Positions 5,260 to 49,443 of a stretch of DNA of 51,156 bases are shown one piece after another. The stretch's first letter is position 1. Every line of letters starts with the position of its first letter. The notes below the pieces were generated by a model, which saw nothing but the letters and a program-made list of their open reading frames with translations, made no database searches and had not been told where the DNA came from. Source of the stretch: Gemmatimonadota bacterium (GTDB lineage Bacteria; Gemmatimonadota; Gemmatimonadetes; Gemmatimonadales; Gemmatimonadaceae). Where the stretch lies: NCBI GenBank assembly GCA_947462095.1, contig CANHNQ010000010.1, positions 1 through 51,156 of the forward strand. Direction: 5' to 3'. A program made the translations under genes and the position numbers.

Positions 5260-5285
5260 TGACGGCGAAGTAGGGAGTAAGAAGT

Positions 5286-5318
5286 ACGGGGTATGGAGTA
5301 CGCCCTACCCCGTACTCC
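5286..5318. repeat. Inverted repeat between convergent Gfo/Idh and GH20 genes
   Basis: AGTACGGGGTA-N-TACCCCGTACT hairpin; part of a GTACGGGG/CCCCGTAC repeat also echoed near 27.2 kb. Confidence 0.6.
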
Positions 5319-5325
5319 CGACCCC

Positions 5326-6951
5326 TTACTGCTTTCGATAGTTGACATCCAGCGCATCCAGCCGCGCGAGATGGGCCGGTAAGCGCGTCGAGAAGTCCGC
5401 ATAATCCCGCCGCGCCTTCGCGCTCCACAGCACTTCCGACAACGCGACCATGCGCGGATACGCCATGTACTCCACGTGCTTGGCGTTCGGGATGTACTCG
5501 GTCCACAGCTGCGCCTGTGCACCCAGCACGTGCTTCGCTTCGGTGGCGGTGAGCTGCGGCGGCACCGGCTCGAAGGCGTACACGCTGTCGATCGGCGTGA
5601 AGCCACCGATGGCCAGCGGCTCCTTCGACTTGTCGAGCGACTGATAGTGGTCGAAGTACGTATGACTGCCCGGCGCCATCACGACATCGTGGTTGGCCTT
5701 GGCGGCCGCGATACCGCCGTCCATGCCGCGCCATGACATCACCGTCGCGTTCTCGGCGAGACCGCCCTCGAGGATCTCATCCCAGCCGATCATGCGTCGG
5801 CCGCGCGCGGTCAGGAACGTGTCCATCTGCCGGATGAACCAGCTCTGCATCTCGTGCTCGTCCTTGAGGCCGAGTGCCGTGATGCGCGCCTGAATCTGCG
5901 GGTTCGCCTTCCACTGCGCCTTGCCGGCTTCGTCGCCGCCGATGTGGATGTACGGACCGGGGAAGAGCGCCAGCACTTCGGTGAGTACGTCCTGCATGAA
6001 CGCCACCGTACTGTCGGTGGGGTTGAGAATGAAATCGCTCACACCCCACACCTGCAGCACGCCGGGGCTCGAGTCGGGGCGGCTGGAGAGGCGCGGGTAG
6101 GCGTGAATCGCCGCCTGCGCATGCCCCGGCATCTCGATCTCCGGCACCACCGTGATCATGCGCTCGGCGGCGTACGCGACAACTTCCCGCACGTCGTCCT
6201 GCGTGTAGAAGCCACAATGCCGCTTGCTATCGAAGTTGCTCGGCTTGGGATTCGTGATGTAGGGACCAACCAGCGTCTGCTCTCGGCAGGAGCCGATCTC
6301 CGTCAGCAGCGGATACTTCTTGATCTCGATGCGCCATCCCTGGTCTTCCGTGAGGTGCCAGTGAAAGCGATTCATCTTGTGACGCGCGAGCAGGTTGATG
6401 TACTTCTTGACGAATTCCTTCGACTCGAAGTGGCGCGCGACATCGAGATGCGACCCGCGCCACGCGAAGCGCGGCGCATCTTCCACGTGGACGGCCGCGG
6501 CCCGCCACGTGGTGTTGCCCAGGGGCGCGTCGCGGTAGATGGACGCCGGCAGCAGCTGCTTGAGCGTTTCGAGCCCGTAGAACGCGCCGGCCGGACCGCT
6601 GGCCGTGATCACCACGCGCGTGGGCGATACGTCGAGCGTGTACGCCTCGGGGCCAAGCGCCGCCCTGTGCACCAACACGATGCCACCACCGGCAGCAGTT
6701 CCCGCGGTGGCGCGACGCACCACCGTGAGGTCGAACCCCGTGGGATTGGCCACGTCGCGCACGAAACGGCGCGCAACACCCGCGAAGGCCGGATCGGCGT
6801 GCACCACCGTGCGCGCCGTCAGCGTGAAGGCGCCGGCGCGGGGCACCAGGACGACAGGACGCGGCACGATCGCGTACGCGCTGCTGTCAGCCGGCATCGC
6901 GGGGGCGGGGGCAGGCAGCGTCAGCAGCGCGGCCACGATCAGATGACGCAT
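5326..6951 (-). CDS. Beta-N-acetylhexosaminidase, glycoside hydrolase family 20
   Basis: HWHLTEDQGWRIEIKKYP, HIGGDEAGKAQW catalytic D-E; start placed at MRHLIVAALL signal peptide (ATG at 6951) rather than the longer ORF. Confidence 0.93.
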   Translation of the reverse strand: MRHLIVAALLTLPAPAPAMPADSSAYAIVPRPVVLVPRAGAFTLTARTVVHADPAFAGVARRFVRDVANPTGFDLTVVRRATAGTAAGGGIVLVHRAALGPEAYTLDVSPTRVVITASGPAGAFYGLETLKQLLPASIYRDAPLGNTTWRAAAVHVEDAPRFAWRGSHLDVARHFESKEFVKKYINLLARHKMNRFHWHLTEDQGWRIEIKKYPLLTEIGSCREQTLVGPYITNPKPSNFDSKRHCGFYTQDDVREVVAYAAERMITVVPEIEMPGHAQAAIHAYPRLSSRPDSSPGVLQVWGVSDFILNPTDSTVAFMQDVLTEVLALFPGPYIHIGGDEAGKAQWKANPQIQARITALGLKDEHEMQSWFIRQMDTFLTARGRRMIGWDEILEGGLAENATVMSWRGMDGGIAAAKANHDVVMAPGSHTYFDHYQSLDKSKEPLAIGGFTPIDSVYAFEPVPPQLTATEAKHVLGAQAQLWTEYIPNAKHVEYMAYPRMVALSEVLWSAKARRDYADFSTRLPAHLARLDALDVNYRKQ

Positions 6952-46846: not shown

Positions 46847-48139
46847 ATGGCCACCGCTCCAGATTCAGCCAGCACGTCCCGCCGCCATCCGCTGAGATCG
46901 CAGGCCGTTCAGGTCACGCTTGGTCTCCTGCTCGGCCTCGCGCTGGGTATGTGGCTCTCGCAGGACGGGGCGCCCTCCGCGTTCACGCGCGGGCTGATCG
47001 GCGTGCTGGACATCGTCGGCACGGCCTGGATCAATGCCGTGCGCATGACCGTCATCCCGCTGGTCGTGCCGCTGCTGATCGTTGGCGTTGCGGGCGGCGG
47101 CGACACCAGCATGACCGGCCGCGTGGGCGCGAAGGCCTTCGCGTGGATGCTGGGGCTGGCGATCGCCTGCGCCATCTTCTCCGCGGTCGTGTCGCCGCCG
47201 TGGTTTGATACGCTGGTGCTCGACCCCGAGGCCACGGCGCGGTTGCGCGCCACCGCCGCGATCGACATCCCCCCTGCCGACGCCCTGTCGCTGCGTACGT
47301 GGATTCTGGGGCTCATTCCCCTCAATCCCATCAAGGCCGCCGCCGACGGCACGTTGCTCCCCGTGGTGTTGTTCACGTTGCTCTACGCGTTTGCGCTCGG
47401 GCAGGTGGCCCCCGGCCCGCGCGCGGCCCAACTCGCGTTTTTTCGCGGGATGGCCGACACGATGCTGGTTGTGGTGCGCTGGATGCTGGCCATCGCCCCG
47501 GTCGGTATTCTGGCGCTCGCCACCGTGCTCGGGCAAAAGCTCGGCACCTCGGCGCTCAGCGCGATCGGCTTCTACATCATGGTGCTGATTGTGCTCCACT
47601 TGGTCGCCACGGCGGCGCTCTACGGGGTCATGGGCGTCACGCGCCGCGTCCCGCTGCGCGACTTCGCGCGCGCGCTGATCCCATCGCAGGTGGTCGGCAT
47701 GGGCACGCGCAGTTCGCTGGCCTCGCTGCCGGCGATGGTGAAAGGCGCGACCGATGTGCTGCACCTGCCCGCGACGGCCACCGGCTTTGTGTTGCCGCTG
47801 TGCGCGTCGGTGTTCAAGCTCACGAGCGCGATCTACTGGGTGGTGGGCGCGCTGTTCGTGGCCAAGCTGTATGGCATCGAGCTGCCCTTCTCGAGTATCG
47901 CGCTGGTGGCCGCGAGCAGCGTGGTGCTCAACTTCAGCACCCCCGGCATCCCCAGCGGCGGCATGCTGTTGCAAGTGCCGCTCTACACCAGCATTGGCCT
48001 CCCGGTGGAGGGGATCGGCATCATGATCGCGCTCGACACGCTCCCCGACATGTTCAAGACGCTGCTGAACGTCACTGCCGACATGCTGGTGGCCGTGATG
48101 ACGGTGCCGGCGGGGGAGCTTGCGGCGAGGGTGGAGTGA
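46847..48139 (+). CDS. Dicarboxylate/amino acid:cation symporter (DAACS family)
   Basis: 430 aa; multiple TMs; RMTVIPLVVPLLIVGV, GMGTRSSLASLPAMV, GIPSGGMLLQVPLY. Confidence 0.92.
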   Translation: MATAPDSASTSRRHPLRSQAVQVTLGLLLGLALGMWLSQDGAPSAFTRGLIGVLDIVGTAWINAVRMTVIPLVVPLLIVGVAGGGDTSMTGRVGAKAFAWMLGLAIACAIFSAVVSPPWFDTLVLDPEATARLRATAAIDIPPADALSLRTWILGLIPLNPIKAAADGTLLPVVLFTLLYAFALGQVAPGPRAAQLAFFRGMADTMLVVVRWMLAIAPVGILALATVLGQKLGTSALSAIGFYIMVLIVLHLVATAALYGVMGVTRRVPLRDFARALIPSQVVGMGTRSSLASLPAMVKGATDVLHLPATATGFVLPLCASVFKLTSAIYWVVGALFVAKLYGIELPFSSIALVAASSVVLNFSTPGIPSGGMLLQVPLYTSIGLPVEGIGIMIALDTLPDMFKTLLNVTADMLVAVMTVPAGELAARVE

Positions 48140-48152
48140 GACGCGAGTTCGT

Positions 48153-48251
48153 GAACTGATCACACAGAGACAAAGAGCAAAAGAGAAAAGGAGACGTGGA
48201 GGCAACGGGCCTCTTTGTCTCCTTTTCTCTTTGACTCTGTGTGATCAGTTC
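48153..48251. repeat. Long inverted repeat / palindromic element in convergent intergenic region
   Basis: Left arm GAACTGATCACACAGAGACAAAGAG[CAAAAGAG]AAAAGGAGAC; right arm (reverse complement) GAACTGATCACACAGAGTCAAAGAGAAAAGGAGAC; inner GAGGC-AACGG-GCCTC hairpin. Confidence 0.93.
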
Positions 48252-48282
48252 AACGATCCAGCCGAAGCACGAGCAACTGACG

Positions 48283-49443
48283 CTACGCCGCCAAGATCGG
48301 CAGTCGCCGGCTCGGTGCCGTCCGCATGCCGCGCTCAATCACACCACCACCGAGCACGATGTCGCCGTCGTAGATCACCAGCGACTGCCCAGGCGAAATC
48401 GCGTGCACCGGTTCGTCGAGCGCGAGTTCAATCGCGTCACCCGACAGCCGCACGATCGTAGCCGGCGCCGCGGCGGCGCGATTACGCACCTGCACCTGCA
48501 CCTGCGCCCCGAGCACCGGCGGCTCCACCAGCCAATTGAGTTCACGCGCTTCGAGCCCGCGCCCCAGCAGCGCCTCACGCGGGCCGATCACCACGGCGCG
48601 TTCGCCCGGCACGATCTCCACCACGAACATCGGTTCCGCGAATCCACCCGGCAGCCCCTTTCGCTGGCCGATGGTATAGCGCGCAAACCCCTGATGCTCG
48701 CCGATCACTTCGCCGCTGACCAAGCGCAGCGGACCGGCCGACAGGGCAGGGGCGTCGGCGCCCAGCTGCTCCTCGAGCACGCGCACGTGATTGCCGTCGG
48801 GTACGAAGCAGATGTCCTGACTCTCCGGCTTCTCCGCCGTGCGCAGGCCGAAGCGACGCGCAATGTCGCGCGTCTCCGCCTTGGTCTGATTCCCGACCGG
48901 CAGCACGAGGCGTGAGAGCACGGGGCGCTCAATGCCCCACAGGAAGTAGCTCTGATCCTTGGCGGGATCGAGACCACGCAACATCACGCGTGCATCGCCG
49001 CCGTTCGCCACGGTCCCCATGCGCGCGTAGTGTCCGGTGGCCAGCCACGGCGCGTCGATGTCGTCGGCCGTCTGCAGCAAGTCGCGGAACTTCGTGAACG
49101 TATTGCAGCGCACGCAGGGAATCGGCGTGCGGCCGCGGGCGTACTCCTGCACGAAGTCGTCGAGCACATCATGGCCGAACCGATCCACCAGATTTGTCAC
49201 GTAATGCGGGATGCCAAGCTTCTCGCACACGCGTCGTGCATCGCTGGTGCTGTCCAGCGAACAGCAGGGACGGTCGGGGATGTCCTTTCCGTCTTCGTGC
49301 AGCTTCATCGTCACGCCGACCACGTCGCAGCCGGCGTCTACGAGCACCGCCGCCGCGACCGACGAATCCACGCCGCCGCTCATCGCCACCAGCACGCGCG
49401 CTCCCTTCTGCGGCAACAGGCCGTGCACCGACGCGTTCGACAT
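48283..49443 (-). CDS. mnmA: tRNA-specific 2-thiouridylase MnmA
   Basis: VLVAMSGGVDSSVAAAVL, PCVRCNTFTKFRDLL, GHYAR, SQDICFVPDG; start ATG 49443. Confidence 0.95.
   Translation of the reverse strand: MSNASVHGLLPQKGARVLVAMSGGVDSSVAAAVLVDAGCDVVGVTMKLHEDGKDIPDRPCCSLDSTSDARRVCEKLGIPHYVTNLVDRFGHDVLDDFVQEYARGRTPIPCVRCNTFTKFRDLLQTADDIDAPWLATGHYARMGTVANGGDARVMLRGLDPAKDQSYFLWGIERPVLSRLVLPVGNQTKAETRDIARRFGLRTAEKPESQDICFVPDGNHVRVLEEQLGADAPALSAGPLRLVSGEVIGEHQGFARYTIGQRKGLPGGFAEPMFVVEIVPGERAVVIGPREALLGRGLEARELNWLVEPPVLGAQVQVQVRNRAAAAPATIVRLSGDAIELALDEPVHAISPGQSLVIYDGDIVLGGGVIERGMRTAPSRRLPILAA

Follow-up and report, generated by a model that had tools for sequence, protein, structure and literature searches.

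A palindrome between convergent DAACS and mnmA genes belongs to a genus-wide class of very long hairpins behind Gemmatimonas stop codons

Introduction

Among the described systems, the closest to the palindrome reported here are the GTAG- and CGTC-tagged REP/BIME sequences, which are likewise multi-copy palindromes of convergent and unidirectional gaps, often lie about 20 bp or less from the 3' end of a gene, in some cases contributing its stop codon, and consist of paired half-elements in varied inverted orders for which a role at the RNA level has been proposed (PMC3733652). In REPINs, which are extragenic and dispersed as well, two inverted half-elements flank a variable insert (PMC3116915). 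Stable hairpins near gene 3' ends are also known from E. coli, where structures lacking a strong U-tract arise through Rho termination followed by exonuclease trimming (PMC13289151). RNA hairpins made or maintained by template switching (PMC8794818) and the quasipalindrome mutations of E. coli (PMC7202029) show several bases of one arm changed together so that it exactly complements its counterpart, a pattern found below in the Gemmatimonas genome G029. Finally, the TAACTGA heptamer repeats of Beggiatoaceae form intergenic arrays of about 7-nt units (PMC4679880), with letters near those of the AACTGA units of another Gemmatimonas genome, G028.

In the literature searched, no paper joining Gemmatimonas with palindromic intergenic repeats or transcription terminators was found, and a full-text search for CACAGAGACAC together with palindromic repeats returned no paper either. 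The formation of mRNA 3' ends outside the model bacterial groups is poorly known, and long hairpins are a concrete, testable candidate for it.

Results and Discussion

Structure of the palindrome

The window, i.e. the whole stretch of 51,156 nt that was analysed, had been given a sequence-only reading in which an AT-richer palindrome was placed at 48145-48256, between convergent DAACS and mnmA genes. Both genes are as named (Table 1) and the palindrome is confirmed, its exact limits being slightly tighter: the hairpin spans 48152-48252 (101 nt) and lies 12 nt behind the DAACS stop codon and 30 nt behind that of mnmA. The predicted RNA fold amounts to -73.2 kcal/mol on the plus strand and -71.3 kcal/mol on the minus strand (z -10.6 for each), and none of 200 shuffles folds as stably. 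The reported shift in composition holds as well, with 45.5% GC in the hairpin against 67.5% in its flanks, an AT content unmatched by any sampled 101-nt window. No other inverted repeat of such quality is present within the window, over which the mirror-repeat control detected none.

The ungapped finder delimits arms of 42 nt each (48152-48193 and 48211-48252) that are 88% complementary, and gapped pairing sets 52 nt of left arm against 44 nt of right arm. The ends read TGAACTGATCAC.../...GTGATCAGTTCA, the outermost base being already paired, and carry no unpaired GTAG or CGTC tag. One mismatch, one 8-nt insertion and the cap GAGGC-AACGG-GCCTC had been described correctly, and a 3-nt mismatch near the tip must be added. 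Since each arm is an array of 8-nt units, with five on the left (from 48163, each ending in GAG+N) and four on the right, the insertion is one extra unit. It had seemed to be a slippage duplication, an idea that fits, since the extra 8 nt equal a unit of the arrays; but a fresh event in the window's own genome (G000) is ruled out, because the 97%-identical ortholog of G014 has the same unit. When 43 long arms from four genomes were pooled, self-identity peaked at lag 7 (0.41, against 0.30 in shuffles, sd 0.012), and single arms most often did best at lag 7 (18 arms), followed by lags 9 (8 arms) and 8 (4 arms).

Table 1. Coordinates of the hairpins and neighbouring genes in the window.
Feature	Position	Strand	Remark
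SDF/DAACS symporter gene, PF00375 (E 1e-70)	46847..48139	+	stop TGA 48137-48139
mnmA, PF03054, PF20258, PF20259	48283..49443	-	convergent with DAACS
Hairpin element, 101 nt	48152..48252	.	hairpin read on both strands
Left outer end TGAACTGATCACACAGAG, dispersed tip	48152..48169	+	multi-copy matches
Left array, five 8-nt units: CACAGAGA CAAAGAGC AAAAGAGA AAAGGAGA CGTGGAGG	48163..48202	+	sequence; class periodicity
Extra 8 nt, unpaired, one unit of left arm	48172..48179	+	same in G014 ortholog
Apex GAGGC-AACGG-GCCTC	48199..48213	.	sequence, fold
Right array, four 8-nt units, read on minus strand: CACAGAGT CAAAGAGA AAAGGAGA CAAAGAGG	48210..48241	-	sequence
Right outer end, exact inverted copy of left end	48235..48252	-	sequence comparison
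Second long hairpin, GGAGTA-type units, sequence unrelated to 48152-48252	5266..5329	.	other convergent gap

Dispersed copies and the search for a transposase

In G000 (3.64 Mb in 215 contigs, 82% complete), BLAST revealed three full copies besides the window element, and a search with the 17-nt end GAACTGATCACRCAGAG gave 73 matches when up to three mismatches were allowed, compared with 5 for the reversed control; tens of such ends are found in G000 and its closest relatives. Paired end matches disclosed fourteen more tip-out hairpins in G000, with both neighbours readable for 12, and at a few loci the ends stand in inside-out order. A single-copy curiosity is thereby ruled out, and the suggestion of a dispersed palindrome family stands, the element being multi-copy in the genome and its relatives. 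All 30 genomes of the genus carry at least one match to the end at up to two mismatches (1 to 46 each, several low), and in a sample of 395 genomes of the phylum, those that lie outside the genus have at most a single match each when one mismatch is allowed. The element is not a known RNA family: the Rfam search gave nothing above the gathering score, only sub-threshold matches, chiefly to microRNA hairpin models. Including the window copy, this tip family in G000 occupies 10 convergent and 3 co-directional gaps and 2 contig ends behind the upstream gene, and no divergent gap.

The spread of REPINs is tied to a RAYT. A check for a REP-type (TnpA_REP/Y1) transposase, which the sequence-only reading had proposed, was negative: PF01797 (Y1_Tnp) has no match in G000 (82% complete) or in the closed genome of the relative G029 (99% complete, 38 tips). 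The domain is present in 8 of the 30 genomes of the genus, and no CAGAG tip was found near the Y1 genes at five such loci of relatives, so that a REP/RAYT partner was rejected. Three of these five loci have a different palindrome, TTCAAGGGGTCAGAGTCGTTGAA, about 300 nt away (L129:2077-2156, L130:1112-1162, L131:2148-2198). Within it lies GGGGTCAG, a match to the GGGGWSAS motif reported for TIRYT ends (PMC3733652), and further copies of the palindrome occur in G029, a genome with no Y1 match. As to the idea of a miniature mobile element, neither a target-site duplication free of ambiguity nor a clean empty site was seen for the window element's family at the loci examined.

Long hairpins at gene ends in four genomes

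Genes and long ungapped inverted repeats were called in 2.45 Mb of four Gemmatimonas genomes (1.2 Mb of G029, 0.4 Mb each of G028 and G020 and 0.45 Mb of G000) with a home-made gene caller that uses no trained ribosome-site model. The survey yielded 80 long hairpins against 3 in the mirror-repeat controls, all counts being lower bounds, as the ungapped finder passes over hairpins whose arms pair with gaps (G023 and G015 have examples). Convergent gaps hold 39 hairpins (177 gaps), co-directional gaps 36 (666 gaps) and divergent gaps one (251 gaps), the remaining 4 lying within genes; the difference in frequency between convergent and divergent gaps is pronounced (Fisher p 2e-15). Of the 36 co-directional hairpins, 30 are closer to the upstream stop codon (p 7e-5), at a median distance of 22.5 nt from it. 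The 80 hairpins comprise unrelated sequence families (CAGAG; AACTGCCAAATGCTTAGGAGGCAGG; ACTC; AACTGA; CACAGAGGGCACGGAG). Of 75 gene-end hairpins, 60 have a purine-rich 5' arm (sign test p 2e-7, a test that ignores relatedness inside families). The palindrome at 48152-48252 belongs to this class of very long hairpins, which is found across the genus behind Gemmatimonas stop codons, most often in convergent gaps.

Taken alone, such placement could also result from a tolerance of insertions at these sites. The palindromes might be dispersed non-coding repeats, REP/MITE-like or born of slippage, that have no function of their own, can spread or arise anywhere and persist only in harmless places, which a compact genome offers mainly behind stop codons; the multi-copy ends common to different loci are what would be expected of them. 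However, the divergent gaps of G029 add up to 31 kb, compared with 19 kb of convergent ones, and yet are free of hairpins, and the co-directional hairpins hug the upstream stop codon. Taken together with the evidence from orthologous gaps given below, we regard a functionless repeat as unlikely, though deserving of serious attention.

Orthologous gaps

The region behind mnmA was compared in 27 genomes, in 22 of which DAACS was found convergent downstream. Where the gap exceeds about 140 nt, a long hairpin is present in the predicted fold in all 16 genomes (judged partly by eye), and none of the six gaps of up to about 120 nt (G011, G003, G013, G021, G012, G025) has one; under the strict ungapped criterion the hairpin is scored in 9 of the 22. 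Its sequence is CAAAGAG-type in G000 and G014, GCAGAG-type in the near relatives G029, G023, G027, G019 and G024, and unrelated in G017, G009, G015, G005, G028, G001, G004, G007 and G022. The hairpin behind mnmA in G026 is also GCAGAG-type, with DAACS outside the stretch compared. In G023 (L136:4277-4920), the terminal 67 nt of the DAACS gene stand three times in tandem with a GATCAACGACTCTGACCCCTTGA copy in between, a local duplication at the 3' end of this gene. Unrelated hairpins were also found at the orthologous gaps of C17 and C103. The occupation of one spot by unrelated hairpins suggests that possession of a hairpin counts more than its exact sequence, and it speaks against a repeat devoid of function.

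The second long hairpin of the window (Table 1) fills the gap 5259/5326 between convergent genes for a GFO/IDH/MocA oxidoreductase and a GH20 protein and touches both stop codons. At this locus G000, G024 and G011 have the GGAGTA-type hairpin; G029 and G026 lack it, the two stop codons of G029 almost adjoining each other. Since convergent genes with no hairpin at all exist there, the hairpin is not essential. Such presence or absence among close relatives is in line with a functionless repeat.

The outer motif GAACTGATCA is conserved and, with its palindromic TGATCA, common to different hairpin families of the genus. This motif, along with the gyrase binding known for REPs (discussed in PMC3733652), would suit a site acting at the DNA level, be it a cruciform, a gyrase or nucleoid protein site or a recombination site, for which transcription is irrelevant. 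Since the placement tracks transcript ends at a short fixed distance from the stop codon and the array sequence is freely replaced, we consider such a site highly improbable.

Upkeep and decay of the stems

In four near relatives, the right-arm units read TACGCAGAG-GGGCAGAG-GTCGCAGAG or close variants, and in G029 they read ATGCAGAG-TGCGCAGAG-GTCGCAGAG, matching the left arm of the same hairpin at 36 of 36 nt. Several simultaneous changes that all match the opposite arm are the mark of template switching (PMC8794818, PMC7202029), and in this one clear case the arm looks as if it had been rewritten to fit its partner in that way. At C59, C5 and C38, six stem pairs are altered on both sides with pairing kept; over six ortholog pairs, however, the changed stem pairs comprise 25 that no longer pair and 6 that are compensated, so that ordinary compensatory covariation in the stems is weak and is not relied on here, and the excess of broken pairs sits well with a functionless repeat.

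The same can be said of decayed copies, namely C9 and C50/G027. At G000:C9:36675-36702 (L014) the element has collapsed to GAACTGATCAGTTC alone where G026 carries a full hairpin; a deletion between two TGATCA copies is the simpler reading, the alternative being an insertion with TGATCA duplication. G028 has 17 copies of GAACTGATCAGTTC, a perfect palindrome of 14 nt, and G021 has 10, against at most one in the nearest relatives of the window; it forms the centre of at least one G028 hairpin (49051). In the copy at G000:C50:858-996 (L008), the palindrome encloses a stem that resembles a classic terminator and has a T-run (GGCACGCCTTTGTGTTTTTC).

Proposed function

The position just behind stop codons, the near absence from divergent gaps and the bidirectional design argue for a role at RNA 3' ends, and a 3'-end hairpin is the reading of the element towards which we lean, judging from its position and structure. 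The element would be transcribed from both sides and act as a bidirectional 3'-end hairpin, either an RNA end-stabiliser or a terminator devoid of a U-tract. The RNA of either strand would run from the stop codon through about 10-30 nt into a purine-rich 5' arm, a loop and a pyrimidine-rich 3' arm; the long stem could mark and protect the mRNA 3' end on each side of the convergent pair and limit read-through into the neighbouring gene. It may block 3' exonucleases once Rho-type termination has taken place downstream, a model that is possible because Rho-type proteins are encoded, or act as a pausing/termination hairpin in its own right. The stems would presumably be kept up by unit slippage and arm-to-arm copying through template switching.

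The bidirectional terminator suggested earlier is consistent with the placement as far as a 3'-end role in both directions is concerned, but no canonical U-tract terminator was found at the window copy in the consensus scan of 47900-48500. An ordinary intrinsic terminator, i.e. a GAGGC/GCCTC core followed by a U-rich stretch, might nevertheless have been lengthened by repeat expansion and work factor-independently both ways; the 3' arm is U-rich past the apex (TTTGTCTCCTTTTCTCTTT), T-runs lie at the foot of the GCAGAG-type orthologs on the mnmA strand, and at least 5 T in 8 are found for 16 of 38 hairpin directions in the convergent gaps of G029. Apart from the empty scan, this explanation is made improbable by the stems, which far exceed the length that intrinsic terminators need, and by the U-tract at the foot, which is missing from most hairpins of the class and present at only some other long hairpins. 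At the convergent gene ends surveyed, canonical U-tract terminators are the exception: they were scored at 7-18% of the ends with no long hairpin and 20-37% of those with one (controls 0-2%). The idea that long hairpins substitute for missing canonical terminators is unsupported: the two kinds occur together, in part owing to long hairpins that are themselves scored as canonical.

A wider proposal, which we put forward tentatively and hold with some doubt, is that the 3'-end hairpins are selected throughout the genus for hairpin length and not for sequence, with degenerate 7-9-nt arrays being rewritten by slippage and template switching, so that species swap hairpins while the function persists with no dedicated transposase. 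Orthologous gaps with different, partly corrected palindromes are a natural series for asking whether template switching keeps RNA stems intact.

Comparison with known systems

The surveyed hairpins are placed as REPs are: extragenic, in convergent or unidirectional gaps and close to gene 3' ends. A REP, however, is a single palindrome of 20-40 bp, whereas the arms here consist of about 40-55 nt of 7-9-nt quasi-repeats; moreover, there is no GTAG/CGTC tag and no Y1/RAYT in the genome, and unrelated families interchange at one site. From REPINs the element differs not only in this lack of a RAYT, but also in that its variable part is the stem itself, in which complementarity is kept. The element may work like a REP dimer or a 3' hairpin, by analogy rather than by demonstrated membership in either class. 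The U-tract-less hairpins of E. coli are not known as dispersed array palindromes. The heptamers of Beggiatoaceae have been described as direct repeats and not as long palindromes behind stop codons. In comparison with the known template-switch hairpins, the process is here suggested for a dispersed set of 3'-end hairpins, accompanied by the gain and loss of 8-nt units.
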